NCBI GenBank assembly: GCA_022925895.1
Contig: JAKSYS010000307.1
Span: forward strand, 1 to 64,000
DNA: 64,000 bases
From: Fragilaria crotonensis
Lineage: Eukaryota; Bacillariophyta; Fragilariophyceae; Fragilariales; Fragilariaceae
Direction of reading: 5' to 3'
In this document: positions 4,501-41,952 of the stretch, in pieces
Position numbering within the stretch: the first letter of the stretch is position 1
Layout of the letters: the number at the start of each line of letters is the position of its first letter
The notes under the pieces: generated by a model
What the model saw: the letters and a program-made list of their open reading frames with translations, nothing else
The model's database searches: none
Told to the model about the DNA's origin: nothing
Program-made: the position numbers and the translations under genes

Positions 4501-7500
4501 CTTAATGGAAACTGGTTCACCGACACATTATTTTCAAAGGTAGTGTCAATTCAGGGTAACGTATGCGCTCAGGTGTTTACGAATGGTCAATTTACAACGG
4601 TTCACCCAATGGATTCCAAGTCCAAAGTTGCTCACGCATTGACGGAGTTTGCTGACGACGTTGGTATTCCCGATTCCTTACTTTCTGACGGTGCACCAGA
4701 AATGGTTGGACCTAAAACGGAATTCATGAAAGAAGTCCATCGTTTGAAGATTCGCTTGAGGCGATCCGAGGTTGGGCGATCCAATCAGAATTACGCTGCG
4801 AACGAGAAATCGGTGAATTGAAAAAGCGCTGGCGAAATCGTATGCTCAAACGTAAAGTACCTCCACGGTTATGGGACTATGGCCTCGTCTACGAATCTAA
4901 CATTCTCAACAGGATCCCACGCGGCCCGCATCAGAGGACTGGCATTGAACTTGTAACAGGAGAAACCCCAGACATCTCCGAATGGCTGGACTTCGAGTTT
5001 TACGATAGAGTATGGTTCTACGATCACAAGAAGATCGAAATTGACGGTTCTGGACGACGACTTGCACGTTGGCTTGGCGTAGCCCACCGCGTTGGCAGCG
5101 ACTTATGTTATTGGCTCCTCCTCGACACTGGTAAGATAATTGCACGTACTACGGTACAACATGTTGTTCGCGAGGATTATGTCAACGACGAAACCAGATT
5201 GCAAATCGAACATTTTGATCGTGACATTGAAGAACGATTATCGGACCGTGATTTTGTAATACATGAGACAAACGATTTTTATATTCAAGATGAGCTGGCC
5301 GACGTTGTTGATGCTCCCCAACCTGACGTCGATTATGATGACATGACAACACCTGCGCCAATGGAGGCCGATGATATAAACGACGAGATTATGGATAAGT
5401 ATTTGAATGCCGAATTGATCTTTGACGTCGGAACGGGGACTGAACGCAAAGGACGTGTTGTCAAACGTGCGAAAGGAACATCTGGCGAGCCGATCGGTCG
5501 AGCTCACGCTAACCCTCTGTTTGATACCCGCGAATACGTTGTCGAGTTTACGGATGGTTCCACTGAAAATTATTTCGCGAACGTGATCGCGGAATGCATG
5601 TATGCACAGGTGGACTCGGAAGGAAGACAGTTCCAATTATTACAGGAGATTACAGATCACAGGTCAGACAATTCTGCCATTCCCGTGGCGGATGGCTTCG
5701 TAATGAGTAGAAATGGGAATCGAGTTCCGAAAGTTACTACTCGCGGTTGGTCCCTTTTGGTTTCGTGGAAAGATGGATCGTCCGATTGGATACCGCTGAA
5801 AGATATCAAAGATTCGTACCCTGTGCAGATAGCTGAGTATGCTGTGACTAATAATATTGCTCACGAACCCGCCTTCAACTGGTGGGTCCCCACTGTCCTC
5901 CGTAAGAGGCACCGAATTGTCGCAAAGGTTAAGAGATATTGGAGAACAACACATAAGTTTGGTATTCGGCTGCCTAAGACCGTGGAAGAAGCACTTGCAA
6001 TTGATGATGAGAGTGGTACTGACTTTTGGCGTAAGGCATTAAGCAAAGAAATGGGTAAGGTTAAAGTTGCGTGGAAGCCGATCGATAACGTTTCGCCGGC
6101 ACAAGCGCGATCTGGTCAAGTTCCGAGTTTGATTGGTTTTCAGGAGATACGGTGCCATATTATATTTGATATAAAGATGGACTTCACGCGCAAAGCGCGA
6201 TTCGTTGCAGGTGGACACACCACGGACACACCGGGTTCGCTCACATACTCGAGCGTTGTCTCGCGAGACAGCGTGCGTTTGGCGTTTTTGATTGCCGGTC
6301 TAAACGACCTCGATGTCTTGGCCGGCGACGTTACCAATGCTTATCTTAATGCGAAGTGTCGCGAAAAGATATGGTTCGAAGGGGGAATTGAGACCGGCGA
6401 AGACCAAGGTAAAGTATTGATTGTTACTCGAGCACTCTACGGCCTGAAATCATCAGGTGCCGCATGGCGAGCTGATTTAGCCGCGACGCTGCGTGACTTG
6501 AATTTCATTTCTACCAGGGCAGATCCCGACGTGTGGATTCGGAGCGCCGGCACTCAACACTATGATATGATCCTTGTATACGTTGATGACATCCTAATCT
6601 TTGCGAAAGACCCGAAGGTAACTATGAACGACCTGGGAAAACTTTATGAATTAAAACCGGAGAGCGTGAAAGAACCCGATATTTACCTCGGTGCCAACAT
6701 GGAAAAGGTACAGCTGCCAAACGGTAAGGTGGAGTGGTCTATGGGGAGTAAAACATACGTGAAGAATGCTATCAAAGTGGTTGAAGCCCTTCTCCTCGAA
6801 GATGATCCGACGGCAACATTGAAGTCCACAGCGCGAAACCCATTCCCAAGTGGTTATAAGCCGGAACTGGATGTGACACCTGAATTGAACGATGAATTAG
6901 CCTCGCGTTTCTTGCAACTCGTTGGAATATTGCGTTGGGCAATTGAGCTCGGACGTATTGATATATTTGTTGAATTGTCACAACTCACAACATCAGGCAT
7001 TACCACGCAAAGGACACCTTGAAGCGATCTACCATATTTTTGCATATCTGAAGAAACATGAGAATGGTGCGCGCATTGTGTTTGACCCCAAAACCCCGAC
7101 TATCGACGAACGAGTGTTTAATTCTGACGCTGACTGGAGTGACTTTTACGGGGACGTTTGCGAAGAGATGCCACCGAACATGCCTGAACCGAAAGGAAAG
7201 AGTGTAAGTATATCATGCTTTGTTGATGCCAATCATGCTGGCAATGCGATCACACGGAGGTCCCATACGGGGATTATTATTTACGTCCAAAACGCCCCGA
7301 TACTCTGGTTTTCCAAACGACAAAATACTGTGGAGTCTTCAAGTTTTGGTAGCGAGTTTGTCGCGTTGCGAACGGCGAAGGATATGATTGTGGCGTTACG
7401 CTATAAACTCCGTATGTTTGGTGTTCCTATCGACGGACCGGCGAACGTCTTTTGTGATAATGGCGTTGTGAAAAATACGACTATTCCAGAGTCCATGTTG

Positions 7501-7800
7501 GCGAAGAAACATAATGCGATTAACTACCATGTGATTCGAGAGGCCGTTGCGGCAAAGATTCTACGTGTCGGGAAGGAGGACGGTATGACAAATCTTGCGG
7601 ACTTGTTTACTAAGGTATTGACAGCCGATCGGCGACGTGCACTTTGTCGACATATCATGTATTGATATACCCTAGGTTATTGGTTTTCGCACGAGCGATG
7701 CCTTTTACCTCCTGGCGCGGCGTTGTCCGTGGGTACATCTTGACCAGGTTCGCGGAAGGTTAAATCATTTACGCTGAGTACATAAACGATTTACGGGGAC

Positions 7801-7968
7801 CGTTCAAATATAGACGGTACGGTACGAAATAATGTACGGTATGAGGAGCGAATGTATGAGGACATGTACGGGTAAGCACATTAATTTATCGTTTATCGTT
7901 TTACTACTTTATCGTTTCCGAATCTTCCCAAGGTAAGAGTTCTCCTCCATTGCGTACGGATTTAAACG
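7801..7968 (+). repeat. 3' LTR of the copia element
   Basis: A 168-bp copy of the 5' LTR, identical except for a 5-bp shorter stretch. It is followed directly by CTTG, matching the four bases before the 5' LTR. Confidence 0.92.
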
Positions 7969-7981
7969 CTTGCTTGATCAA

Positions 7982-8228
7982 TTGCAGATAAGACACTAAG
8001 CCAATGCAACAGTAGACGAGTAAGCTACTCCTTTCTATTGCAGTACCCAAGTGTCTATCTAACATTCGTCGTTACGTAAATGACATACTGACGGCCCTAG
8101 GACATTCGACCGCAGCGCGGTCGAGGGCAAACAACTTGTTCCCTGATGGAAATCACTCACTTGTTTTGCAAATGAGCGATTTGAATACATCGGTGATGCG
8201 ATATCAGCCGATGTACTTTTTTTGCTAA
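7982..8228 (+). repeat. A1 terminal repeat of the YR retroelement
   Basis: A 247-bp sequence identical to A2 at 16749-16995. It contains an 8-bp-stem inverted repeat (TCGACCGC AGC GCGGTCGA) and a second one (ACATCGG...CCGATGT), which could be recombinase or structural sites. It begins only 9 bp past the target duplication of the neighbouring copia element. Confidence 0.9.
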
Positions 8229-9535
8229 TTTGATCACGACAATGAAGCGACACTACGCGTGTTGCTTACTATCTCTGATCTGCTTATGTTTGGAGCTCAA
8301 ATGAGCCCAACATTTATTTTGCAAACCATTGTGTCTATCAAAACCTGACCAATGGCGCGCTCCAGTTGTAAACAACAGTCGATGACTACTGCGACGCAGT
8401 AATCATCTGACTAATGATGCTTCGTTATCTTTCGATACGGCATTATAACAAAGTTATACCTGCATGGTACCCTTTTAATCACGGGCCCATCAGTTTTTCA
8501 GCAAACCATTGCGCTCATCAACATTTAGCCAATGACGCGCACATGACCGGTCAATGATCCCTGCCGAGCGGCAACTCATTTGACACTTAATGTACGAGAT
8601 CCTACGATCCAAACATTATCACTCTAAGAAACAAAAGACACAAAGGCCAAGTGACAACAGGTAACTCACGACACTTGCCAATCCCCAAAACCATATTCAC
8701 AATCATGACAACAAAGTAAAAAAAAAAAACCAAAATACTAATTCGACAAGCATGAATTCAAACCCCTAATCATCTCGCGTGCAAGGAGCGTCATTTAAAT
8801 AAAATTATCATCCCTTCATTCGTAACAATAATGCTTGTACAGTCACGAAGCGAGCAGCACAACATATTCATGTTACCCATCGTGAAACGTAACTCTGCAA
8901 TTCGAGAATTTTGTAATTTACTCAGCAAGACTAAAAACTCGACTACTCTCTGTACTCTTTCCGGACTTACAGCCCCAAAAAAGCTCAAATCAAAATTTAT
9001 CAAGCAGTCGGTCATAACACCCGAACGATGAAAAAATTGGTCTGTAACTGGCATAAATTTCACCGTATGACCGGTCTTTAGACCAGCCAGGCATTCATAG
9101 CCCGGTTTTTACCAACTACTCAAACTTCGTTCACACTTTTGCCTCGAATCACATTTCTAATTTACATGGCGTCAGGTGGCAAAAATTTATTTACCCTCTG
9201 GTTATTCTTTAAGTACCCTTCCACTAGCGTCCGGAAAATACAACCATACCCACTTGTCAAGACCACCTACATTTGGTTTAATTAGACAACCCCAATCAAA
9301 TAGTATCCGATCACCATGACTTTTTAGAAAATCTTACGGGCAGTCTTTTATCGACCATGCCAACAAACAAGTGTTACTCAAAGTGATATGAAGGGGGCAT
9401 GAACCAATATGTCATGGTACAAACGTACCAATCTACCAACTTCCAAGTGTTACTCACCTTCAAAAAGCAAATCCCAAAAGCTCACAATCCGTCGAATTTG
9501 TCGATAAGCTTTCAGTCAAACCAAACACCAGAACC
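8229..9535 (+). other. Untranslated leader of the YR retroelement, with a diverged internal repeat
   Basis: I see no convincing coding frame in this 1.3 kb. It holds two diverged copies of a block starting GCAAACCATTG (8321 and 8501, 180 bp apart), each followed by a CCAATG(G/A)CGCGC motif. There is also an A-rich run near 8720. It lies between A1 and the Gag-like region and is best read as the element's leader and promoter region. Confidence 0.5.
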
Positions 9536-12500
9536 ATGAACTTCGCTCCCGCCACTCGTGAACTCTCGTTCCGCGACCGTGCACTCCATGCCGCAGCTAT
9601 TGCTAAGCTATCCAGCTTCGCAGATGCGTATGAACCCAATCCCACCCACGTCAACCAAGTCAACGCCACATTCGCAAAAACGTGCTCTCCGCTAACTCGT
9701 TTCGCTACCTTGTGCGATACCAACGTTGTGAAGCAACTCGCATTCGTCATGCCAAACTTCTACATGCAAGTCATGTCATGCCCTTTCCAGCTCAAGGTCG
9801 AACAATGAGGAAGTATTCGCCGGCAGCCTAGGGATTCGATGGAAGTCTTTTGCCCTGTCACCATCAGGATGAAAGATGTGCGAGGCGACCTCTTCAGCAT
9901 TTGCGAAACTCGCGCAGAAGCAAATTCGCTCAACCTCCCAACATCGGAATCAAACCCACTTGAAGAGGAAGCCCCGCCTAACGAAGACGAATTTGTCGAA
10001 GTCGAAGTTGCGGGACCCGATCGTATTGGAATCGACCTCAACGTTGCGACAAAGGAACCATGCTTTGTAGCAATCCCAAAGGTCATCCCCGTTGCGGGGG
10101 GGGAGAAGGATTACTCCGAATTCAAAGAGTCCCTCATCATCACCCAAGCAATGCCATCCGTCCTCCCGGGAAGTATGCAAGCAGTCTGGTACGAAGCCAT
10201 GCGATATGGTATCCGCAAGCTTGACAATTTATCCTTGCAAGCAAAGGATGTCCTTTTCCGTTACGAAAACCTTGGGAAAGTCGAGTTTGAAACTACGAAT
10301 CGCGCCCCAGTATCACGATTCACTACCATCGTAACGTACTTAACACCAGAGGACCCGCTGTACCATGAAGTCATCAAACGAGTCCTTGGAGAAAAAGAGA
10401 AAGCAATGCTAACTTTTGGCGCAAAGATATTGGAGTCAACACCACTCGAGCCAGCACCTGCTACAACCAACGCGGGTACAACAAGTACAGCTGGGATGAC
10501 GGCATCGATACCATCCCCAGCAGACTCGGGCATTTCAGCGTTACTCGATGGGTTGGCAAAAGCCATATCTGACACATCATCCAAAACACTAACCGGGACC
10601 GAACGAGACAAAGCATCTGAAGCGGAAGATGCAAAACGATTCTACAGCATACTTTTTGGCTCGGTTCACCAAACTATCCAAGAAGACGGAACGTATATAC
10701 CAACGTTCGCTCAGGCAACCATCCACCCTCTGTTCATGCCAGTGTTGACAGCAAACAAAAATTCGAAAGCGACAAGAGCAATGCAGGAAGCTGTCGAGTC
10801 CATGGCAGCCGAACTGAGCCTCCAAGACGGATGCTTCGCTTCATCGAGCAATCTCGTTCCAAAGATGTTCGACCAACCCCTCACTGCAGCAATCCGTACA
10901 GGCCAATGGGAGAACCAACACACAGTACTAAACCCATGGTATAAAACCAACTTCGGCTTGCACCATCTGGCTCCACCCCGAACCAACAGTGCCACCTATA
11001 TCACTCGCCAGCAAGGTGAGCTGCAGCTAACCCAACAAGAACAAGTTGAAGAAGACCAGAGTCGGTACAACGCAAAAGCAACCGATCTCTATCATTTCGG
11101 ATACATGGGAACCATTTTCGAGATCCAGGAAATGGTTGGTAATTTGTTTGGATTGATGTGTACTATCATCGAATTCGAGGAAGCGAATCCACCCCTCATT
11201 TGGACAGAGGTCGCAAAATTCATGAAGATCTTGCGAACCAACGACGGCCGTCGATTCGCAGCTCGTCATCGTAACATCCCCGAGGTGATGTTTAACGTCG
11301 GTCAGGAAATCCAATCAATCATTGTGGGATACGTCTCCGAAGCAAGGAAAACTAATTACAAAGCGGCCATCAAAGCAGGTAACGACATTTCCCCGCTCAT
11401 CTTTGATATTGCACAACAGCAAGCAGCGGAACTGCGCAGCCGTTTCACCCTTGCAGTCTTGGCTGCGAATGCGGGCCACTACAAAGACGTATCAGCAATC
11501 TTCAAACTCTTTCAGCCAGAGCCGTCCAAGGAAGAACTGAATAGGAGAAAGAGAGAAGCAACGAACGAAGCGAACGGGAACGCCACAGCTCGAAACCGCC
11601 CATTCTCATCCAGCGGCAACCGCCCGACGGGATCCCCGAACCAACACGCAAGCACGGTCACGCCTAACGGCAGCCCAGCATCGGGACCAATCCCCAATCT
11701 GCCAGGAAAAACAGTGTTTGTGCACGCAAGCCCCGCGCCACAGAAGTTACCCCACCCGGGTGCGATCTTTCCTCACCCGACTCGAGAAAACAAGTTTACC
11801 ATCCTCTGTTGCCGAAGCGCTTATGATGGTCGTAGTTGCACGATACCAACTTGCGCCTTTTACCATTTTCCAAAACAATTGAATCAAGTCCCCCGCGACT
11901 TGAAAACCAAACTGAAAGAATGGGTAACCAACCACAACTTGGTTACATGGCATGCGGATGTAGCCAATTGGGCGAACCCACCAGGTAACGTTTCGTCTAC
12001 GAGATCGACTTCATCCGCGTCGAACCAGTAAAATCTAACCGATGTCATACACATTAGTCCCAGTGTTTTACCCAAATTTACAGCTCCAAATCCCTAAGAA
12101 GGCATTCCATTATTCATTGCCTGCAATCCGCGCCGTAGAGATAATATCGGAAAGGCAAGAACGATCCATGTCGCCAAGCATCCAGAATCTTATCAACCAA
12201 GCAAAAGGAATCGAATTATGTGTACAATCCAAGGCAACTTCGGAAAACAACACCAGCACCATGATCAGCGACATGACCGGGAGTACGGAATTAGAGGAAG
12301 CAATACCGTTGACATCGGAATACTTAAGCCGCATGACAAACCCAACCGCGACCCAGGACATTTCCATCGTAACCTCGCCCACATTATCAGACGACAATTG
12401 GAAAAAAGGAAAACTCACGTCAAAGCGGTTGGACAAGTTTGCTCAGATCGTCCTACCATCCAAGGTTCAAATTCAACTGGCGCAACCCTTTGGTAAGGAC

Positions 12501-15500
12501 TCGTTAAGCCAGGCCTTTTATGCTCAAAAATGTTTTCGCCACGTATTGTTACCTGTTTTGAAAAGCGGTTTCTTGTCTTGTCGTTCGAGGAAAAACCTCG
12601 AGAAAGCATCGCGTCGTACTCGCCAACTCCAAATGCTGCGAAAACATTACGCGCATGTCGATTTCTTACCACTGCAGGGGTTCCAACCTGATTGGGGCGA
12701 AACGACAACCATCCGAAACGACTGGAAAGAAATGACGTCGGCGTGCCTTCTCCATTTTGATGGAGACGTCGCAACAATGGTTCGATGGATCGGAGGACCG
12801 CACGTCAATGCCCACCTCAACGTTCCGTCGATCTTGGAAAAGCTTAAAAAGATTGTCGACCCAGACATTCACTCTGACCTCAGCCGTATCCTCCTGTTGG
12901 GAGCACCATCCGAATGCAAGGCATCAGCCACGGAAGAAAACTTCCAAGCATTTCTGAATTACGGTAATCACGATTCGGTCACCAACAACCAAGAAGTCTA
13001 TGCATCGACAATCGTCAAGCAAAGCAAACGAGGCTTAACCCTCATCATGGACCCAAGACTGGTCCACTTTGCACTGAACGCGCATCTATCACCTCAAGGG
13101 TTGGTAGACGTCATCCACCACCGCCGGAAACCTCGACCATTGTCAGACAGCAGTTTTCGACCATGGCCGGGAGCAATGGCCATTAACGATTGGACCAACA
13201 AAAAAGAACGAGCCAAAGCTTTATTTCGCAAGCTCATTCATGAATTTCTGTAAATGGCAATGGAACTTAGCCATTACTTACCCGCATCACGATCGTCACA
13301 CAGGCGACGATGATGTTCAATGTGCATTTCCGCGACTCAAATACAACCCCCAGTTGGTGGCAATGCACAGTTCGATATCCAACAATACCCTGAGTATGAA
13401 CACGGGCCTCACCTTTGGGGACAATACAAGCCCCTCAAACTGGGAACCAATTGCAAGAGCACGGCAACAATTAGCGCAACATTATTGGCTCAACCAACCA
13501 GAAATGGTATTGGAAAAAGCGAAGTTGTTTCTCCCGCCGTTCCAATTTGCTCCGTCGGCGACCGAAGAAGAAAAAAGCCGCATTCGCCGTTGCAATCCCC
13601 GATTCGTTGAATACTGGCGTCGTTGACGCCAATGGGATTCGACGGCCGCCGACGTACGATCATCATGTCGACGACAATATGTATGGCGATATAACCGAAT
13701 TAATGCCACTCGCGGCATCGGCGAGTGTCATCGCCTTGTATGAGATATTGGGATACCCTGACGGTAGAATACCTGACCCCATCTCATGGGACAAGTTTGA
13801 ATCCGTCCATGGCCACATACGACGCGTGGTGGGATGGGATTTTAACACTCGAGCCTTAACGTTCGCCCTCCCAGACGACAAGCGTTACGCGCTACTGATC
13901 ACGCTCCGAGAATGGTGCACCAAAACATCGTGTACCCTCATCGAAGCCGCTGAACTTCATGGAACGCTTGCAGACATCTCACGCGCCAATAGAAAAGGGA
14001 GAGCCATGTTCTTTGGTTTCCAAAATGCCATGAGACGAACCATTAAGCAACGATATCACCAAGTGAATGGGTTTTACTCGCGACAAAACAAACGCCAGTA
14101 TCTATCAGCACAGTTACCGAAGCACTTGCACCACCGAATGGATTCTTTGATCGCTCGCGACATTGCCGCCCTTATTTGGAAAACAAAAACAATTATCAAC
14201 CTGCCAGAACCCGTCCTGTTTGAAATCCGAAATATCACAGAACTGCTAGCAGAAAAGGAGCGACCATGGTCGATAAGTATTGGCCATGTCATCCCACGTG
14301 ACGCTCAATTCACCAGCCTGGGGGATGCCTGCGGAATCGGGGGAGGAGCGTTCTGCCACGAACTCCAATATTGGTTCGATGTTGTGTGGTCCGACCATAC
14401 CCGCCAACAATTTGACAGCGGCAAAATCCACATCAACATCCTGGAATTCGTTGTCGTCTTGCTGCAATTAGCAGCCGCCATTACTCGTGACGAAAATGCT
14501 TATCAAGTCGAGGGAAATGGTATCCGGCCACTCCAAAAACTCCTTATCCGATCCGACAACTCGCCCTCTTGTAATTGGGCGCATAAAGTATCGGCAAAAT
14601 CGGAACGGGGACAGTTATTTGTCAGCATTTATGCTGACCTCATCGAACGAACCGAACTCTCAGTCGATTGCAATCATGTTGCCGGAGTAGACAACGACCT
14701 CGCCGATTTTTTATCGCGTCCCCCCCAAGAACATATTACTCACCACATGCGTTGCAAACAGATATTTCAAAAGGAGCCGAGGTTGCGGTCCTACAGCTTT
14801 TTCCGCCCCAGTCCAGAACTCTTATCATGCCTGGTGTCCAGGCTGTCCACCGTACATTGGCAAGCAAGCCCGCCTCTCCCAAAGTCGCTCGGACAATTCG
14901 AAACCGTCGACTCCACTACTTCGTATTCTGTTTCGATATGAAACTCGACGACGATTGGCTCCTCGAAAACCAGTCGCAAGAGCGAGCTAATTTCCAATTG
15001 GCAATGTACGCAACGCATTTGGCAACAGGATCATCTCTCCACTGTCGAGCAATCAAGGCTAGCACAATCGCGAGTTACTTACATGACATCGCAACCTTTC
15101 TGGGGCGGTTTCGGCCGATTGATCCGCGATTTATATCCGCAGCAGACGCAGCGCTCGCGCCCGTGATCGCCAAGGTTATTGCCGAACAACGACGCTGGGA
15201 AATGGTCCCAAATCGACGTGAACCATTTACAGTCGAAATGCATCTCGCTATCGCCAACCTTTCAAGTTCCCAAAAGGATGATTGTTGTCTGACTGCCGCC
15301 ATGGCAAACTGGACGTTATGCAATCTCTATGCAGGATGTCGTGGTATCGAGTGGGCACAAACCCAGCTCATCCACCGACCCCTCAACGCATTTCACAAAA
15401 ACCGATTCAAAAATGCATATGCATTCACTTTGAACGATGTCTTGTGTTTCACCATAACTTCCTCTCCTCTAACCTTCGCGCAAGCTCTCGCAACCCCATC

Positions 15501-16506
15501 ACGGGTCGAAAAAATCAAGTTGCGATTCGAAGAGCAAAAAAATGGTGAGAATGGCGAGTGGAAATTGTTCACGCGTAACAACAGCAACACGAACCTATGT
15601 TTCGTATCGAATTTTTTACAAATTCTTGCACGCCACAAGAGACTGGCGAATTCCTCCCCCACTCAGCCTCTGAGCGTGTACCGCGGAGAGGATGGCGTCG
15701 CATACAATATCACAACTGTCGATATTGATGCAACTCTCCGCGCCGCCGCCGCTAAAGTATACCAACTCGACCCTATTGCGCACCGCGCAACCCTCCAATT
15801 GTGGTCTTCCCATTCGCTACGCGTCGGCGCGTGTACCCTATTATATTCAAAAGGGTTTAGTGAGATGGAGATCAAGTATCTGTTGCGATGGAAAAGTAAC
15901 GCTTTTATGACTTACCTGCGCAATTTGGCCGTCACCTCCCGCCGACAAAACGACGCGGTGAACGACACAAGCGAAATACCTAATTTTGTGTAATGCGATT
16001 TACCCTTTCGATCAGCGTTCGCATGTGTATTAGCATTCCCGAGCAAGCAGAGCCACATCGGTGCCCACACCATGTGTTGTAATTAGCCCGAGCACATTCC
16101 TCTCGCCTGCATGCCTCGAGGTCCAGCGTTAGTATACGCTAAATTATCAAATTGCGCTGCGAACATAACGCATATGAAAACGTATGCCAATAAGATATAA
16201 CGCATGCCCGGTACGCATCAAGCAACGCAGACGAGCAGGCAAACATCCTGCTCGAGTATGCCAGTACCGTCGCACGAGATCGTTTCATATGTCTGTCTTG
16301 TTGTCTTACCCAAACGAGTTTTAGCAACCCAACTGTTTCTACCATTTCCGCCGCTTGTTACGTTGTCGTGCTAAACGCAATTATAACAACCCGACTGAAA
16401 CACAGAATTATTTCTTTTTTTCCTTTTTTTCCGGCTGTCTGCCGCCGCACGATATGGCCCCCAACCCTGTTACACTACGTATAACAGCGTCCGCAGACGA
16501 CACGGG

Positions 16507-16748
16507 CAGGCCAGTGCTTTAGTGAACCATCCGGGAATCCGTTGGACTCCTCGGATACTCTAAAATCGTCATAGTCACTACGTTTTTTGCCCACTATGCT
16601 ACTGTCACTACGTCATACTCGTAGAAGTACACATACGACAGTACCATGAATGCTCCATACGTAGTTGCTATGTGGTTACACTATTGCACAGCCATACCGT
16701 TCGACAGTGCAGTACAGCTGAGGCGACTTCTGGGAATCCATAGGATTC
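16507..16748 (+). repeat. B1 repeat of the YR retroelement
   Basis: A 242-bp sequence repeated as B2 at 17020-17262 with two substitutions and one single-base length difference. It ends in a perfect short inverted repeat, GAATCC ATA GGATTC (16734-16748), exactly at the B1/A2 junction, a plausible recombinase core site. Confidence 0.9.
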
Positions 16749-16995
16749 TTGCAGATAAGACACTAAGCCAATGCAACAGTAGACGAGTAAGCTACTCCTT
16801 TCTATTGCAGTACCCAAGTGTCTATCTAACATTCGTCGTTACGTAAATGACATACTGACGGCCCTAGGACATTCGACCGCAGCGCGGTCGAGGGCAAACA
16901 ACTTGTTCCCTGATGGAAATCACTCACTTGTTTTGCAAATGAGCGATTTGAATACATCGGTGATGCGATATCAGCCGATGTACTTTTTTTGCTAA
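16749..16995 (+). repeat. A2 repeat of the YR retroelement
   Basis: Identical to A1 over 247 bp. It abuts B1 with no gap and is separated from B2 by 24 bp of unique sequence. Confidence 0.9.
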
Positions 16996-17019
16996 CCCAC
17001 CCGCCGTCCCCAACAGCCT

Positions 17020-17262
17020 CAGGCCAGTGCTTTAGTGAACCATCCGGGAATCCGTTGGACTCCTCGGATACTCTAAAATCGTCATAGTCACTACGTTTTT
17101 TGCCCACTATGCTACTGTCGCTACGTCATACTCGTAGAAGTACACATACGACAGTACCATGAATGCTCCATACGTAGTTACTATGTGGTTACACTATTGC
17201 ACAAGCCATACCGTTCGACAGTGCAGTACAGCTGAGGCGACTTCTGGGAATCCATAGGATTC
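17020..17262 (+). repeat. B2 terminal repeat of the YR retroelement
   Basis: A 243-bp copy of B1, ending in the same GAATCC ATA GGATTC inverted repeat. The right boundary is set where identity with B1 stops (B1 continues into A2, B2 into CTGTCATGCG). Confidence 0.9.
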
Positions 17263-17465
17263 CTGTCATGCGTCTTGCTCTCCGTCAGAGTTAAAGAGGA
17301 GAGAACCAAGGAGGTAATTCTCCGAAAGGGTTTGAGATATGTAAAAGATTCCGGTATGAAAAGAAGATTTTGCGGTTGGCCGTGGGACCAAAGGTGCCTG
17401 TCGTTCTCCCTTGGCACTAAAACTTTTGTCAGCGCCATCACCTGTCACTTTTCCTCGCCCTCACG

Positions 17466-18476
17466 ATGAGATCTACCCATGTTGTGCGCAACATCAGCCG
17501 AATGCTGGACCTTGGTGGCATGCCACCGGCCAGCACGTCAAGAAGTTCGTTGATGGATGCCTCTAAAAATTGTAAGGTTCGCTGTCTGGCCTTTGATTTT
17601 GATCTTTTGACCCGGACGGTAGCCGAGAGTCAGCAAGCAGCTCAGCAATCAGCGAGCATACGAGTCGTCGAGCCATCAGCAGCACCAACGCCCAAGGCAC
17701 CGGTATTACCGGATGTAACTATGCTGCAACAAATGGCAAATCTGCTAAATGTTAAATTGGGAGAAAGTGTGACGGCAAAACGACTTGATGACGACTTGTC
17801 TGCGTTAGGGGAAGGCAAGAAATCGACAACCGTAAAGAAAGCTGTATCCAATCCTGTCGCCGGCGACACCGACATACGCAACAAGTATGCAGCGAAATTA
17901 CAGAACCGCGGTGGAATCGCCGGCATTGAACTTGCTAAATACCAGGCCGAAGATTCACATTCAAAAGGAGATGCTGCAGGTCATTTGGTTGCTCGCGCCA
18001 TGGCCGTCAAGGCCGGAAGCTCGTCAGAAACGTCCCAAAGATGGATGGCGCACACCGGAACGGGTGCGCTTCTCCAGTATGTGACAATTCGAAGCATGAA
18101 AATCGCTCTTCTGCCTGTGCCTGGTAATGGCAAGGCCGAACAAGAAGGGAATCGGATGGAGGAGTTTACCAAACAAATACCCCAAGTCAGTTTTGATGTG
18201 GTTTTGAAAGAGGGAGAAACTGTTGCTGAAATTCTTCAAAACCTGCTTAGTCAACTTTCTATGGAACCTCTGACTTGCTTGGTCGTATCGGATCGAGACG
18301 ATTACCTACGAACTGCCAAGGAAGCGGGCATGACAACCTGTAGAGTAAGGGCTAATGCCAACGCGCCACGAGGCAATACCACTGCGCACTACACTGTCAC
18401 AAGTATGGCCGAAGTTCAGGATGTGGTGAATGATATCAATGGCATTTCCTTTAAAGCCGCTGCATCGGCGCGGTAG
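17466..18476 (+). CDS. HAD-like hypothetical protein
   Basis: A 336-residue protein of unknown role. Residues 43-50 (FDFDLLTR) resemble motif I of the haloacid dehalogenase fold (DxDGT) but without the Gly. Near the C-terminus, VVSDRDDYLRTAKEAGM (273-289) resembles the HAD motif III/IV block that binds the metal and precedes the 'aakaAGM' helix. The middle (about 55-190) is low-complexity and Lys/Ala-rich, with no family I recognise. The first 25 residues are basic and hydroxyl-rich and could be a transit peptide. It starts 203 bp after the YR element and would originally have been divergent from the PPAT-like gene at 1090. HAD assignment is an inference from two motifs only; enzymatic activity is doubtful because the canonical DxDGT is altered. 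Confidence 0.6.
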   Translation: MRSTHVVRNISRMLDLGGMPPASTSRSSLMDASKNCKVRCLAFDFDLLTRTVAESQQAAQQSASIRVVEPSAAPTPKAPVLPDVTMLQQMANLLNVKLGESVTAKRLDDDLSALGEGKKSTTVKKAVSNPVAGDTDIRNKYAAKLQNRGGIAGIELAKYQAEDSHSKGDAAGHLVARAMAVKAGSSSETSQRWMAHTGTGALLQYVTIRSMKIALLPVPGNGKAEQEGNRMEEFTKQIPQVSFDVVLKEGETVAEILQNLLSQLSMEPLTCLVVSDRDDYLRTAKEAGMTTCRVRANANAPRGNTTAHYTVTSMAEVQDVVNDINGISFKAAASAR

Positions 18477-20277
18477 TTACATGAATTCCTGTCGTGTATG
18501 TTACGCCATTTTCGCAGAAATGTACCGGTGCCAAACTTGTAATGTACCCAAACAAGCCTGATGGTAGAACAAAGTCCTTGCTGATTGAAAAACTTTACAA
18601 ATCTGGTTGATGTCTCAGTTCGCACTTTGATGAGAGGTGCAAAGGAAGTTTTGCGCAGTGGCAGAAAGGCTCTCGCATGCGCGCATTTGCCGAAAGTGAC
18701 TACAAGGATGGGCACGTCCCACTGTTAAAATAATCGATGATTACCATAGATACAATAGATACATACGCAGTAAATCCTAGCATTGCGATTGAGTAAACAA
18801 ATATTCACAGCAGAGGGTCAGACAAACAAGCGTTGCCAGCATAAGCACGAAGTCGTAACTCTGTCAAAGAGTACGTGCATTCCAATTGCAAGTATTGATG
18901 CAGGATCTCCTGCAATCAATCTCGCCGAGTCCTCCAGCACCCTCATCCACCACAGAAGACGATGAAACAATCACATGGCACCCCCATTGGTGTTGATACC
19001 GTGACCCGCAACTCCAAGTTGGAAGGCAAAATGCTTCAAATTGCTCGAACTAACATCGACTCGTGATTCAAGAACTTGGATTTCTTAGTCAGTGGGACTC
19101 GTCTTGTGGACATCCAAGTTAACGAGGTTTCTTTAGCCAATCGATGACTTCCAAATTTCATAGCCTGTTTGATGCTGACCATAGGTTTCCTGCATGCTGA
19201 TGCAAAGAACAAATGTTCTTAGTTTCCTTGAGGAGGAACAAGCAAATAAGAATTGCACAAAAGATTCTTCATTATTTGCATGAACCAATCAGAGCGCTGA
19301 GTTATTCTGCACCTTTATAATGATATCTACATCAGCATGAGCTTCTATGAAGATTTTCCTTAACAGCCACTTGATGACAGTGCTGTGATGGAGGATGTAG
19401 AAGCCCCACCTATTTCTGAAGATGTGGAGTTGTGTCCATATCAGAAACTTTATGAGGAAGCAGGCAACCAGAAGGTACTATTGTACCTGATGTGTATTGC
19501 TTTCTTGCGTGATCACGACGGCAATGTTCCTCTGTTCTGTTTGGAAATGGAGCCATGGTTACAACTTCCCAATACGGCATCACTGCATCGTCCTATAAAC
19601 ACTGATTTCTGTGTGGAAGTTGCATGACAAGAAGCAATGCTCTTCAATGTATTCCCAGTTTCACATCCTCCTCCAACAATACCCAATTTGCAACAAAGCA
19701 GATGTTGAATTTCTTACTAAGGAGGTGGCAAGGATTCAAGACATTTTTATAAGTGCCCAGCAACAACAGCAGGAGACAAGTGAGTTGATGCCAAGCACTG
19801 TCAGCACTGGTTGAGGGCAACAATGGCATGATCAAATGCAATCAGCCATTACCTTTTTCATTGCTTTTGGATTGCGTTCCACCAGAAGTCGGTGCTCATT
19901 TCCTTTTCAACTTTTCAAAACCTCCTCCCGCACTGAATTCGGGGGTTTGACACCAGATTTGTGATGTGCAGTGTCTCCAATACCCACCATTTGAACACAG
20001 GTTGGGTTGGAGGCTTTCTTGACATGTTTGAGATCCTCCCAATCTGGCTGATGAACGTGTTTTCCGACCTTTCAATGTGTTCTTCGGCGGGACTCGCCGT
20101 CCCCATTGCGTTGTCACAGATCGGTTATCTGCACACAAGAAAGCCCTGCCATCATGCATAGGAACGACAATCAGCGTTGTCGTACTGTGCAAAAATTTTC
20201 TTCTCTATTACGTTCGCATGATATCGCATGATTGTTCTGTTGTTGTCTAATTCGCACTTGTATTCAAGTGTATCAAG
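18477..20277. other. Gene-poor stretch with weak protein-like fragments
   Basis: No gene I can name. Around 19385-19800 two adjacent plus-strand frames read like one protein: an acidic start at 19385, ELCPYQKLYEEAGNQ, then KADVEFLTKEVARIQDIF and a short Gln run. I do not recognise a family, and flanking frames are full of stops. It may be a decayed gene or part of an old element. The rest of the stretch shows nothing. Confidence 0.3.
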
Positions 20278-23139: not shown

Positions 23140-25412
23140 TTATGTTGAGCTCCTCTTTCGGCGCTTAGTTCGACTGCGTTGTCTCTTCGGTTCTACAATC
23201 TTTCGCTTGGATTCGTCAACTCTGCCCAGCAATTCGAAGAGGGATCGATGTCGGCGAATCGCTTTGTCGTTGAACTCGCGGTGTTCTGCTTTGAATTGTC
23301 CATGCTCGCCCACAACCCAGCCATAAACCACCTCAGTCAATCCAGGTTGCCATCCATACCCACTACCACGCTTGACCATGTGTTGCTCACTGTCTGCTTC
23401 AAACGCCGCTTGATCTCGATACTCAACTACGCTGTCGAATTTGCACCACCCCACTTGATCTACCACGTCGGCACTGAGATCAACTTTATCGCCCAAGGCA
23501 CTGACTCCCGCAACTCCGCGGCAAGACTGCAGAATGATAATTTTCCTTCCCATTAATGCAGCTGGTAGGCTGTAGGCTCGAGTCTCGATCCTTTTCGTCC
23601 CATTTAGTAGATGCATTGCCCAAGGATCTTGCATTTCAAGCCCAAAATTACGAGATTCCCATCCATCCCAGTCCAAAGGCTTGCAATTTTCGTCCATCAC
23701 CTTTGGAACCATTGATAGCTTGCTACTAGCCGGCAAAATCACTGCGGCTGCCAGATTCGTACGCTTTTCCCCAACACAAAAGTCTTGCAGCCATGTCTTG
23801 CAGTTCTTGAGAAGATCCCGGCATCGGTGATTGCCCCCTTTCTATTGAATTTTTCGATCCACCGACCAGAAAATCAACTGGAAGTGGTATTGGGCGATTG
23901 TCCCGGCTAACATCGTGAAAGACTCCATCGTGTTCGCGAGCCAGCCACAGCTCTCTCATCACTGCCCGTTCTTGCAGTAACAACGCTATTGGTTCATAGA
24001 GGTACTTCTTCGGCTCTCCACTATTTACTTCGCCTCTTCCCAGAAGCTCTTCAATTCCCTCGCGCGCTTTTCTTCTTTTCTCGCGCAACTTTCGCTCCGC
24101 TCGAGGCGGAGCTGGACCGTCAGCTGTGCTGGATGAATCGTCCATTCCACACCGACCCTCGGCACCAAATTGCAACCATTCAATGGTCTGTTTAGTTCGT
24201 TCTTCAAGGCGCGACCAATACTTGAGCAACTCTTCCATAGGTTCTTGCCAGTTGTTCTTCCACAGGAGATCATGATGTGCCTGTCCTTGAATGAAGAATT
24301 GACGAAGCCACTCAGATTCCATCTCGGTCAAGAGCAGCTGCTCTGACCGCCACACCTTGGGTCCTTTCTTGTGAAAATTTGCGCATGCCGACTTGCAGCG
24401 AGCGATGATGTGGGCGACATTGTGCGAATCCCTGAGTAACCGATGCGTCGACGAGAATCGCCGTCCAGGTACCTTCCCCTCAGCTATAACAGTGTGCTGA
24501 TGGTGATGATTGAAGTCATCCAACATGCAATACGTTGCGCCAGAGGGCAATGAGACGGCAAGTGGTGGCGTTTCGGTTTCGACATATATATCCGTCCCTC
24601 GACGTGAGGCCTGCGGACCTTCAGAATTGTGGGCCACTCGCAACCCCACCGACCACTTGCCTTCGGTATCTGCTTCTTTATTGATCAGATGATAAACGGC
24701 AATACAAGAAAAGTTCTCCAGACTGGAATCGGCATGCCATGAGACGGAGCATTTTCCTTGTCCCAGATAGGGCTCGTCCTTGAGGCCCACGGTTGACTCC
24801 ATACGATTGATAAGAGCCACATCAAAGCCTAGTCGTCCTTTCGTTGGTTCGGCACCTCGTGCAATCCGCTTCTGATCGAGATCAGATAAGTGTTTCTTTG
24901 TCCGCTGCGTCAGCATTGCATTAAGGTCGCCGATGGTTTGAAGCGCCTCGCTGAATCATCGACACCGACGAGGACGATAACGATGGACGCGTTCTCCATG
25001 AATGAGAAAACATTCGAAGGCCCAGGTACTTGTAGGTCGTCCCTGGCTCTCCAACCAAGCATCTCGTCACATAGGTCTTAGCGCACTTGGTTCCCAATCC
25101 AAACGGTTGCGTGACATCAACTCGAAAGAAACCAGCGCCCTCCATAGCGAGCAACGCCGCTTCCACACGCTGATGGAAGTCCTTCATCACCATCGGGTCG
25201 TCGACGCAAAATCCTTCGTATGATGTTTCTAGCGCTTGTTGAAAGGATTCTTCATAAGGAGGTTCATCTCGAAGAAACTCATTCTTAGGATACTTCAACG
25301 CAGCTGGAAAAGGTAGAGGAAAGGTCGGTGAATGTTTTGAATGGAGAGACTTGACATGGCTTCGCGTCGCCACATCGTCCTGCTGTCCTCTCTTGGTCTT
25401 ATTCTTTCCCAT
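23140..25412 (-). CDS. FTO: FTO-like Fe(II)/2-oxoglutarate nucleic-acid demethylase, apparently continuing into an ASCH domain
   Basis: FTO oxidatively demethylates N6-methyladenine/N6,2'-O-dimethyladenosine and related bases in RNA. The N-terminal part (25412 to about 24950) has the FTO-type LVGEPGTTYKYLGLRMF. The catalytic part has SWHADSS (iron His and Asp), MLDDFNHHHQHTV (second iron His) and GRRFSSTHR (2-oxoglutarate Arg), matching human H231/D233/H307/R316/R322 in order. The helical C-terminal domain (EWLRQFFIQGQ ... IPLPVDF) is also present. After it, at about 23140-23640, comes an ASCH domain with DPWAMHLLNGTKRIETR (the GxKxxE signature). The frame changes twice: near 24950 and between FTO and ASCH, where a G5 run (C5 at 23834-23838 on the plus strand) gives one continuous frame if one base shorter. 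Alternatives are short introns or two genes. The ASCH part ends in a basic Arg/Lys-rich tail. Confidence 0.85.
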
Positions 25413-39524: not shown

Positions 39525-41952
39525 ATGATTGCCTCCTCAGCCGCAGCCCGTTTCTTGGCGCGTCGTACATTCGCACCTGCTGTCATGGGTGTGCGTGGTA
39601 TGGCCTCGTTGGAGGCCTACGATGAATTCGGAAAGAACTTGTTCACTGGAAAAGTTGCCGATGAATACCTCAAGAAGCATGGAGCGAGTGGAGCAATCTT
39701 GAAGGATCCTTCATGGGTGAAGACTCACGCTGATGTTGTCGCGAATGCTGTGTTTGATTGGTGAGTGCCAATGATGCTCTGGTCCGCGCTGAGTCTAGTT
39801 GTTCATCTCGGCAAGCTTGTGTTTGGCGTAAAGTCGCCGTATCTTGGATCTGTCGGCTGTACTCCTAGTCTTCGCGTAGGATTTCACACAGCGGAATTGG
39901 TACTTATCCGAACCCACATCCGAAACTTCGCGAAAAATGTTGCGTTTTCCGTTCTTTTTCGAACGTTCTCATGTCTCTTTCTCACCCTCCTTCGCTTTCA
40001 ACTTTTGATGATCATCAACCGACCGATCGTCCAACAGGGCTATCGACAATGGCGCCAACGTCTACTGCCATTGGTTCCAGCCCATGGCTTCCTCAGGTGT
40101 CCGTCACGGACAAACTGGTCAAGTCCAAAACATCATGTTGGAGTTTAACTCGGACAATGAGGTCGTCCAGGACTTCAAAGGGAAGACACTCATCAAAGGT
40201 GAGACAGACGGTTCTTCCTACCCTAACGGTGGACTTCGTGGAACCCACCGTGCTGGAGGATACCTTGCCATCGATACATCTTCCCCAATCTTCCTTCGCG
40301 GAGACACCATCTTCATCCCTTCCGTTTTTGTTTCCTACTACGGAGCTGCCCTCGACGAGAAGACACCCCTTCTGCGTGCCAACAACGCCTTGAACAGAGA
40401 AGGAAGCCGTCTCTTGTCCAAGCTCGGTCTTGATGTTTCCAGCGGTATCCGCACCAACATCGGTCTCGAGCAGGAAATTTTCCTCATTCCTCGTGAGGCC
40501 TACTACAAGCGTCCTGATCTTCAGTTCACTGGTCGTACTATCATTGGAAAGGACGCTCCTCGTGGACAAGAAATGTGCGATCATTACATGGCTCCTCTCT
40601 CTACCTCTACCCCAGCGTTGGCTTGCATGCAAGAAATCCAGGACGAATGCTGGCGAATGGGAATCCCACTCAAGACTCGTCACCGTGAGGTCGCACCCAA
40701 CCAGTTCGAGTTTGCTCCCCTTTTCGGAAGCAACACCACCCAGATCGACCAGAATCTTTGGGTCATGCAAATCATCGAGGAAGTCGCCGCAAGGCACGGA
40801 CTTGCTGCTCTCCTGCAGGAGAAGCCATTCAACAACGTTAACGGCTCCGGCAAACACAACAACTGGTCCATCGCTACCAACAGCGGCGTCAACCTTCTCA
40901 ACCCTACCCAACTCGAGAAGGCATCCGGAAACCCATTGGCTTTTCCAGTTGTTATGGCTGCGGTCGTTGCTGCTGTTGACGAGCACGGCGATTTGATGCG
41001 CATGGCTATCGCTTCCCCCGGAAACGACTTCCGTCTTGGTGCATGCGAGGCCCCTCCCGCTATCGTCTCGACTTACTTGGGTGAAGATATGACCACCTAC
41101 CTTGACGCGTTCCGCAAGGGAGACAATGCCAAATACAGTCCTTCTGTGAAGACTATCGACCTTGGATGTGCTGAAATCCTCCCCTTTGAAGTCCCTGCGG
41201 AGGACCGCAACCGCACTTCTCCTTTCCCATACGGAGGTGGACGTTTCGAGTTCCGTGCCGTCGGATCTTCCCAGAACGTGTCCATGGTCAACACTGTTCT
41301 CAACACAATTGCTGCTGAGAAGTTTGCCCAGTTTTCTGATCGCATTGAGGCTGGCGAGGATCCTTCTGAGGTTGCCCGCGAGGCCCTCAACAAGCATTGG
41401 AAGGTCGTCTTCAACGGAGACAATTACTGCGAGGAAAACCAGGCTATGCTTACCGCCAGTGGTGTTTGGCGTATTGACTCAGGTGTGGAAGCGACCGCTG
41501 CCATCACCAAGGAAAAGAACGTTGCTCTGTTCGAGAAGATGGGTGTCCTCAGCAAGGAAGAGTGCTTTGCTCGCCAAGATATCCTCCACGGCCACTACAC
41601 TGGAACTGTTGAGATGGAGGCTCTCTGCTTGATTGACATGATCAACCAACACGTCATCCCCTCCGTTAAGGCAGCTGGTATCGGACCACTTGCCGACTTG
41701 GAGGCCGCTGTTGGCTCAATCAAGTCCGCCCTCCAGGCTATCCACCACGCAAGTGATGCTCACGAGAAGGCCTCGCTCGCTCGTGTCCTTCGACTTGAGA
41801 CTATGATTGACATTCGCGCTGTTTGTGATGCTGCCGAGGAAATTGTTCCAGCTGATTTGTGGACACTTGCAACCTACAAAGAACTTCTTTTCCTTGATTC
41901 GCACACGGCTTCGGAGGGTGAAGCGTCGGCACCTGATTACTATGGCGAGTAA
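39525..41952 (+). CDS. GSIII: Glutamine synthetase type III, mitochondrial-type
   Basis: ATP-dependent ligation of ammonium to glutamate. There are two exons (39525-39760 and 40038-41952; a 277-bp GTGAGT...CCAACAG intron), giving about 716 residues, normal for GSIII and twice the size of GSII. GSIII hallmarks include GGLRGTHRAGGY, the GLEQEIFLI glutamate site, KTRHREVAPNQFEFAP, NGSGKHNNWS and FRLGACEAPPAIVS. The N-terminus (SSAAARFLARRTFAPAVMGVRGMA) is a basic, Ser/Ala/Arg-rich presequence; diatom GSIII is known to be mitochondrial, whereas GSII is plastidic. Codon use is strongly biased (C-ending codons), suggesting high expression. The long antisense open frame over this gene is a by-product of that bias. 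The C-terminal 24 codons are tandemly duplicated just downstream. Confidence 0.97.
39761..40037 (+). other. Intron in GSIII
   Basis: 277 bp, GTGAGT at the donor and CCAACAG at the acceptor. It splits a Trp codon (TG^G) and restores FDWAIDNGANVYCHW. Confidence 0.9.

Follow-up and report, generated by a model that had tools for sequence, protein, structure and literature searches.

A probable tyrosine-recombinase retrotransposon of Ngaro-like anatomy, with a predicted gag-pol intron, in the diatom Fragilaria crotonensis

Among retrotransposons that carry a tyrosine recombinase (YR; order DIRS), split direct repeats are common to the PAT, Ngaro and VIPER groups (PMC6681497; this and all other papers given by PMC number are cited from excerpts). 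The Ngaro elements of Cafeteria burkhardae are about 6 kb long, have the layout A1-[ORFs]-B1A2B2 with open reading frames (ORFs) for Gag, reverse transcriptase-RNase H (RT-RH) and YR, and also occur as solo A-B units (PMC8547959); a methyltransferase is absent from Ngaro (PMC4157794). The VIPER/TATE elements of kinetoplastids, likened here by description, share the A1...B1 A2 B2 arrangement (PMC6681497), and VIPER likewise lacks a methyltransferase (PMC4157794). PAT-like and DIRS1-like elements also combine RT, RH and YR; PAT-like ones have split repeats, some DIRS1-like ones have overlapping ORFs, and DIRS1-like elements have a 3-bp junction (PMC3266345, PMC4157794). In the stramenopiles, 15 DIRS/Ngaro and five PAT-like families are described from Ectocarpus, a brown alga, again compared by description (PMC12477816). 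Diatoms are represented by DIRS elements in Phaeodactylum (14 copies, 18,118 bp), described without anatomy (PMC5859163), and by a Gypsy/DIRS1 class in Chaetoceros (PMC8613185). No diatom Ngaro was seen in the titles and abstracts of the listed literature on Ngaro and diatoms, nor is any Ngaro assigned to a diatom in the excerpts consulted, and no complete split-repeat element of a diatom among the literature matches listed. Here we describe such an element in a 64,000-nt stretch of Fragilaria crotonensis DNA (contig JAKSYS010000307.1, G+C content about 0.48), hereafter the window, whose positions serve as coordinates; the features of the element lie on the forward strand.

The element spans 7982-17262 (9,281 bp), running from TTGCAGATAAG to GGATTC, and we regard it, with a probability of roughly 85%, as a copy-and-paste element of the YR (DIRS) order that is Ngaro-like in anatomy, for which a splicing and junction mechanism is proposed below. 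Self-comparison gives the layout A1-coding-B1-A2-B2. The A1 repeat at the left end (7982-8228, 247 nt) begins TTG CAGATAAG and is identical to A2 (16749-16995, 247 nt) at 247/247 positions. B1 (16507-16748) and B2 (17020-17262, the right end) are 98.8% identical, with two mismatches and one indel in a gapped alignment; ungapped self-comparison splits this pair into stretches of 184 nt (99%) and 62 nt (98%). A C-rich spacer of 24 nt (16996-17019) separates A2 from B2, and B1 and A2 meet at 16743-16751 in an internal junction, GGATTC/TTG, which equals the two element ends if joined. A first-pass annotation of the window had proposed the same outer coordinates, now fixed as the exact ends by the copies and by the empty sites of related insertions, and B copies of 242-243 bp flanking A2, which the alignment bears out; it had also put identical A copies at both ends, of which the identity holds, but the right end is B2, 24 nt beyond A2. 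No inverted repeat pair of at least 30 nt (seed 14) was found in 7000-18500, which rules out an inverted layout of the DIRS1-like type.

Three coding frames lie between A1 and B1. ORF1 (9536-11984) is Gag-like by position, with a CCCH-like finger near its C-terminus; in the window copy it has an in-frame stop at 9806-9808 and a long open part at 9839-12031, and in relatives the open frames reach about 850 aa. ORF2 (12058-14941) would encode Pol, comprising RT (motif C, HHVDD) and RNase H, and is broken into 12042-13253, 13240-13626 and 13547-14941. ORF3 (14761-15993) encodes the YR, in which the R, K, HxxR, W and Y residues are conserved; its open frame is 14668-15993, with conservation from a D codon at 14761. 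The overlap between ORF2 and ORF3 measures 208-235 nt in the four copies that are intact. The motifs on which the first reading of this locus relied are where it put them, HHVDDNMYGD in the open frame 13547-14941 and HSLRVGAC...LLRW...Y in 14668-15993, and RT/RNase H and YR are indeed present, but the interrupted gag and pol frames and the predicted gag-pol intron had escaped it. Taking at least 780 aa for gag, 900 for pol and 400 for YR as open, all three frames are open in 4 of 21 copies (the window copy plus 20 loci), namely L032, L033, L034 and L037, and in the window copy the YR frame alone is open. The assembly was built from Nanopore reads and polished with Illumina data (PMC9476933), so some of the frame breaks may be errors. 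In all 12 ORF comparisons the proportion of nonsynonymous differences (pN, 0.10-0.27) is far below that of synonymous differences (pS, 0.66-0.81, near saturation).

Residues R225, K291, H382-x-x-R385, W408 and Y416, whose catalytic roles we assign from family knowledge, are invariant in 7/7 YRs compared. A PHROG integrase profile matches all seven (best E 8.2e-5), a match of Pfam Phage_integrase lies below the cut-off, and the closest PDB sequences are Cre, at a non-significant E of 0.07. In five of five Pol sequences the motifs GDDDVQCAF, TFGDNTSP and HHVDD are conserved, which from general knowledge we take to be RT motifs A, B-like and C, as are GDAC, LEF, DNS and AG..N.LADF of RNase H; the motif A aspartates, VDD and the RNase H acidic residues are invariant in all five. 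Pfam scans of the element proteins gave no integrase-core match and no hydrolase domain, and no methyltransferase (Dam) match was obtained for seven element proteins of L032, L033 and L034 (one of them ORF1) at E up to 10 with filters on, in keeping with the absence of methyltransferase and hydrolase noted at first. One weak N6_Mtase match within the L034 YR stays below the cut-off; with the MCM_N, UVB_sens_C and TALPID3 matches, also sub-threshold, it was taken as chance. Among viral contigs, 19 and 46 stretches fit a pattern with the YR and Pol profiles, respectively, and among prokaryote genome contigs 69 did, with none confirmed as a relative in either set.

RT, RNase H and YR within one element, with no DDE integrase found, place it in the order DIRS, as does the lack of target-site duplication seen at four related insertions with empty sites (rather than at the window copy itself). 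The split direct repeats in the order A1-ORFs-B1-A2-B2 and the lack of a methyltransferase domain are Ngaro-like features, and the PAT-like methyltransferase was not found. Neither inverted terminal repeats with an internal complementary region nor a junction triplet equal to the target triplet, both DIRS1-like features, were seen. By published criteria (PMC4157794, PMC6681497), split repeats without a methyltransferase indicate Ngaro or VIPER. The initial reading as a YR retrotransposon with split direct repeats is supported, and its label 'Ngaro/PAT-like' partly so, the layout being common to PAT, Ngaro and VIPER (PMC6681497). The element differs from Cafeteria Ngaro in its length (9.0-9.8 kb), its RT/RH unseen by Pfam, its ORF2/ORF3 overlap and its predicted gag-pol intron (PMC8547959). 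An undescribed lineage in diatoms, as first suggested, is too strong a claim for the order, given the 14 Phaeodactylum copies (PMC5859163); it stands for a complete split-repeat element among the literature matches listed, and the family adds to a host group in which the order DIRS is barely described in the literature searched.

Two other classifications have to be weighed. The YR could belong to a Crypton, a DNA transposon, lying beside or nested in an unrelated retroelement, and Cryptons do exist in a diatom (PMC3212892). A Crypton has a YR alone, without RT, whereas in full copies one set of terminal repeats encloses RT, RH and YR, these repeats are long and split, and ORF2 and ORF3 overlap in the four intact copies; we reject this explanation as highly improbable. 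A closer competitor is a PAT-like element that has lost its methyltransferase, or a separate fifth subgroup, working in the same way and not related to Ngaro. PAT elements share the split repeats (PMC6681497), methyltransferase loss has been suggested in a Pat1 lineage (PMC4157794), and RVT_1 misses the diatom RT, whereas the Cafeteria Ngaro RTs are PF00078 (PMC8547959). We see no decisive point against it and keep it as a tentative alternative, appreciably less probable than a coin toss.

Several observations weigh against the reading as a YR retrotransposon of Ngaro-like anatomy. The name 'Gag' is based on the position of ORF1 and on a finger recognised by eye. No Pfam RVT_1 or RNase H match to ORF2 was obtained at E up to 10 with HMMER filters on (up to 1 for the window pieces), and the Pol profile has no match in PDB. 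An empty site for the window's own insertion was not seen among the 40 of 489 candidates scored. Two loci have less similar repeat pairs, namely L028, at 92% for A and 96% for B, and L029, at 78% for B within the 140 nt available. Comparison with a second YR-linked element of the same genome (C542) relates Pol to an RT (hhalign E 1.3e-9, probability 96%), but the alignment fails to superpose the two DD motifs; with a third (C114), the thumb-RNase H part of Pol aligns at E 6e-5 (probability 65%), but the palm piece is insignificant (E 0.56).

The C542 and C114 elements carry YRs related to that of the window family (E 9.6e-10 and 2.4e-8), which, with their RTs, points to at least three YR-retroelement lineages in the genome. 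The C114 RT has a weak RVT_1 match (E 0.014) below the cut-off, and the RT matches of these two lineages number 113 and 129, partly overlapping. In C114 (L048, L061) a 186-nt exact direct repeat, 431 nt apart, follows directly after the YR, so this element too may be of the split-repeat type; in C542 (L049, L062) no direct repeat was seen in the 602 nt checked.

Within the 62.1-Mb assembly (881 contigs), hand-grouping gave a lower bound of at least 76 Gag-like matches on at least 39 contigs, and the YR query returned 102 matches, the weakest of which (25-31% identical) come at least partly from other lineages. Twenty related regions (labels L0xx) were fetched and compared with the window copy. 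Further A and B copies, which the first-pass annotation had proposed counting, are plentiful: both pairs occur in the same order in 14 of the 20 (L022-L033, L037 and L038, with L028 and L037 running to the locus end in the self-comparison), a recurrence that argues against a chance repeat layout. The B pair alone is present in L040, and no pair in L021, L034, L035, L036 and L039; L021, L035 and L036 have a single A and a single B, and the 3' repeats of L034 are interrupted. Element length is 9.0-9.8 kb across 12 copies. In 12 elements (the window copy and 11 loci) the A1/A2 and B1/B2 pairs are 97.3-100% identical, except for the L038 A pair (92%, gaps only), with Kimura two-parameter distances of 0-0.028 (the L022 values were measured at a third A copy), whereas between elements the A and B repeats diverge by up to about 30%. 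Near-identity of the pairs within an element is what a replication cycle that copies both from one template would predict. As judged by the identity of A1 and A2, the window copy inserted fairly recently, and the assembly shows breaks in both its gag and its pol frame. Solo A-B units, three of them independent (L041, L043 = L044, and L045) have the same ends as full elements, like solo long terminal repeats (LTRs). Unrelated tandem repeats occurring alone, raised at the outset as what would undo the interpretation, are ruled out, since lone A and B are precise A-B solos.

Some copies show further rearrangement. L022 ends B-A-B-A-B (8627-9902), with an additional A-B unit and the GGATTC/TTG junction repeated, perhaps from recombination with a solo unit or circle. 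L046 and L047 are short forms with an A-like start (TTACAGATAAG) that match only up to an internal B-like motif, and may be non-autonomous derivatives. At 8839-9900 of L034, whose three element frames are all open, a DDE_Tnp_4 (Harbinger-like) transposase frame lies inside the 3' repeat region.

The ends of the copies are sharply defined and asymmetric. Twenty of 23 left ends begin TTG and three TTA (L038, L046, L047), and all 20 right ends stop at GGATTC, with varied sequence beyond; L044, with the same flanks as another locus, was dropped, and L028 and L039 did not contribute left ends. The internal B1/A2 junction reads GGATTC/TTG, with TTA in L038 and L040, and the left-end triplet equals the internal-junction triplet in 14/14 copies showing both. 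The terminal triplet is thus present at 23/23 left ends, and the element's own triplet at 0/20 right ends. A genome search with the joined flanks of each of 18 independent insertions (19 counting the duplicate), in which 40 of 489 candidates were scored, gave empty sites for four (L021, L022, L027, L036). In all 11 examples fetched, left and right flank adjoin where predicted, and nothing at that point is duplicated or missing; one base 5 nt to its left is absent from the three L021 examples, L060 matches at only 85%, and in L057 the right flank comprises no more than 29 nt, the second of which is a mismatch. These empty sites are repeats elsewhere in the genome, hence paralogous and not allelic. 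To the left of the cut the target weakly resembles GGATTC (56/138 matches, against a background over 72 offsets of 34.7, with an sd of 4.5 and a maximum of 44); for its last three letters taken alone there is no such likeness (20/69 vs 18.0), and the right side of the target shows none to the element's left end. In the right flanks T is found in 11/20 at each of positions +6 and +7, where the target's right arm might lie.

The model published for DIRS1-like elements involves circle intermediates, and their 3-bp junction recombines with a target triplet of the same sequence (PMC3266345). The F. crotonensis element differs in that the target triplet is not its own. If both strands crossed over within a 3-bp overlap lacking identity, a mixture of outcomes would be expected, and joining of one strand only would give the triplet always on the left. 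An ordinary double-stranded circle with a 3-bp overlap would yield the same pattern if mismatch repair always resolved both heteroduplexes one way. In its favour, circles are what has been published for DIRS1-like elements (PMC3266345), but that model calls for an identical target triplet, and random resolution would mix the sides instead of placing the triplet left in 23/23 and right in 0/20; we put this explanation only slightly short of an even chance.

A spliceosomal intron of 73 nt is predicted between gag and pol at 11985-12057 (CAG/GTAACGT ... CTAAC ... TTAG/T), and the comparative evidence for an intron of this type is strong. In 20/21 copies, many of them close relatives, removal of the predicted intron would join Gag to Pol in frame. 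A script requiring CAG/GTA near the ORF1 stop, CTRAY inside and AG before ORF2 found it in 17/21 copies, 16 in phase; L021 was out of phase through its anchor, L028 and L039 had no donor, and L038 and L040 no acceptor. With hand-set patterns L021, L028, L038 and L040 are in phase, and L039, which lacks the region, was dropped. The weaker cases are L038 (GTACAGT...AAG) and L040 (GTAACTC...TAG/A), and L021 has a stop upstream in gag. Predicted lengths are 73, 76, 83, 84, 85, 86, 88, 109 and 152 nt, covering all three residues modulo 3, and in every case the joined reading frame passes from WANPP, WATPS, WATP or WATPA to Pol. A gag-frame stop lies inside the intron in 16/16 in-phase copies. Across eight representatives CAGGTAA and TAG/T are invariant and the intron interior is hardly conserved. 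The conserved start of ORF2 (FFPN) has no upstream in-frame ATG in L032 and L037. On the other side, the ORF2 frame of the window copy has an ATG at 12042, inside the intron and just before the conserved start, so ordinary re-initiation is possible in window-type copies, and no spliced retrocopy was found, with 0/30 gag-pol and 0/63 gag-YR matches spanning the junction query among the matches listed.

Plant Ogre elements, which are Ty3/gypsy LTR elements with a DDE integrase, also have an intron between gag and pol; unlike them, the diatom element carries a tyrosine recombinase. Introns in Ngaro/DIRS elements are not mentioned in the excerpts of PMC3783388, PMC6681497, PMC8547959, PMC3266345 (term searches), PMC12477816 and PMC5718144, and none is evident among the literature matches listed; the founding papers of Goodwin and Poulter are outside this scope, and the intron is not claimed as new.

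The YR frame has no conserved start codon, and its conservation begins at a CAG that we propose as a 3' splice acceptor (14759-14761), with CTCAC 23 nt upstream. In ten representatives, ORF3-frame identity rises from 0.31 over the ten codons before the acceptor to 0.72 over the ten after it, and the 30 codons upstream contain 18 stops, the 40 downstream none; identity in the overlapping ORF2 frame rises there as well (0.52 to 0.71). CTNAY lies 21-25 nt before the acceptor in 19/20 copies and at 35 in L040. The ORF1 donor would join the YR acceptor in frame in 16/17 copies (WANPP-D-ISKGAE), the exception being the mis-phased L021. Splicing of the ORF1 donor to the YR acceptor, giving Gag-YR, is the likely and favoured route, as yet unproven. 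The YR might instead be made without splicing: translation could begin at an AUG or near-cognate codon that lies 9 nt ahead of the conserved start, or ribosomes could shift into the -1 frame late in ORF2. An ATG at -9 is present in 7/20 copies, a point against the splicing route, and is missing from the other 13, including the intact L032, L033 and L037. ORF3 does lie in the -1 frame of ORF2, with a heptamer (CCCAAAG/CCCAAAA) in the right register in three of the four intact copies, but a shift there would omit about 39 conserved ORF3 residues after the D codon, and both unspliced routes sit poorly with the identity jump at the acceptor and the frequent stops upstream of it. We give them together a real chance, if less than an even one.

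We propose that a single transcript would run from A1 to B2 and that, unspliced, it would yield Gag; removal of the short intron would give Gag-RT-RNase H, and use of the same donor with the acceptor before the YR probably Gag-YR. RT would copy the RNA, with the internal B1-A2 junction as a template that restores both ends, joined as GGATTC/TTG; the YR would then link this junction with a target whose left arm weakly resembles GGATTC, so that TTG ends up on the left and the target's own bases on the right. A bolder version is unlikely as a whole: that a single donor serves alternative splicing for all proteins (unspliced RNA giving Gag, the 73-152-nt intron Gag-RT/RNase H and an intron of about 2.8 kb Gag-recombinase), that the YR joins one strand of a single-stranded cDNA, and that the family is a separate, deeply diverged diatom branch. 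One-strand joining of this kind, if true, would keep the terminal triplet always on the left; in 2020, Malicki et al. reportedly observed single-stranded DIRS cDNA. To our knowledge, end restoration, integration and recombinase expression in YR retrotransposons are understood largely from models. In the F. crotonensis family, young and diverged copies alike are numerous, their ends are exact, empty sites are available and the predicted intron is conserved, all in one culturable alga, which makes the choice between circle and single strand, and the expression of Gag, Pol and YR, testable questions.

Several minor features accompany the element. A leader without a recognised gene (8229-9535) contains the motif GCAAACCATTG...CAATGnCGCG twice, about 180 bp apart within 8320-8540; a similar pair is present in L025, and by that pattern the motif is absent from six other copies. 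The C-rich A2-B2 spacer is 24-26 nt long and alike between families with about 30% repeat divergence, and might be a priming signal. The right end carries a dyad, GAATCC-nnn-GGATTC (17248-17262), found by a pattern search with a fixed stem, with loops ATA, ACA, TGT or AGT among the matches. The host was correctly recognised as a diatom, with 19 matches to silicic-acid-transporter genes, a family that we take to mark diatoms, 18 of them over the cut-off (among 14 control genomes one matches, and none over the cut-off). Just upstream of the element, 4818-7665 holds a Copia-type pol (RVT_2 in 4818-7022) that continues in a second frame, and host genes in the window include an FTO-like gene at 23726-24916 on the reverse strand (Pfam FTO_NTD), glutamine synthetase III at 40084-41949 and a cullin at 46140-48482.

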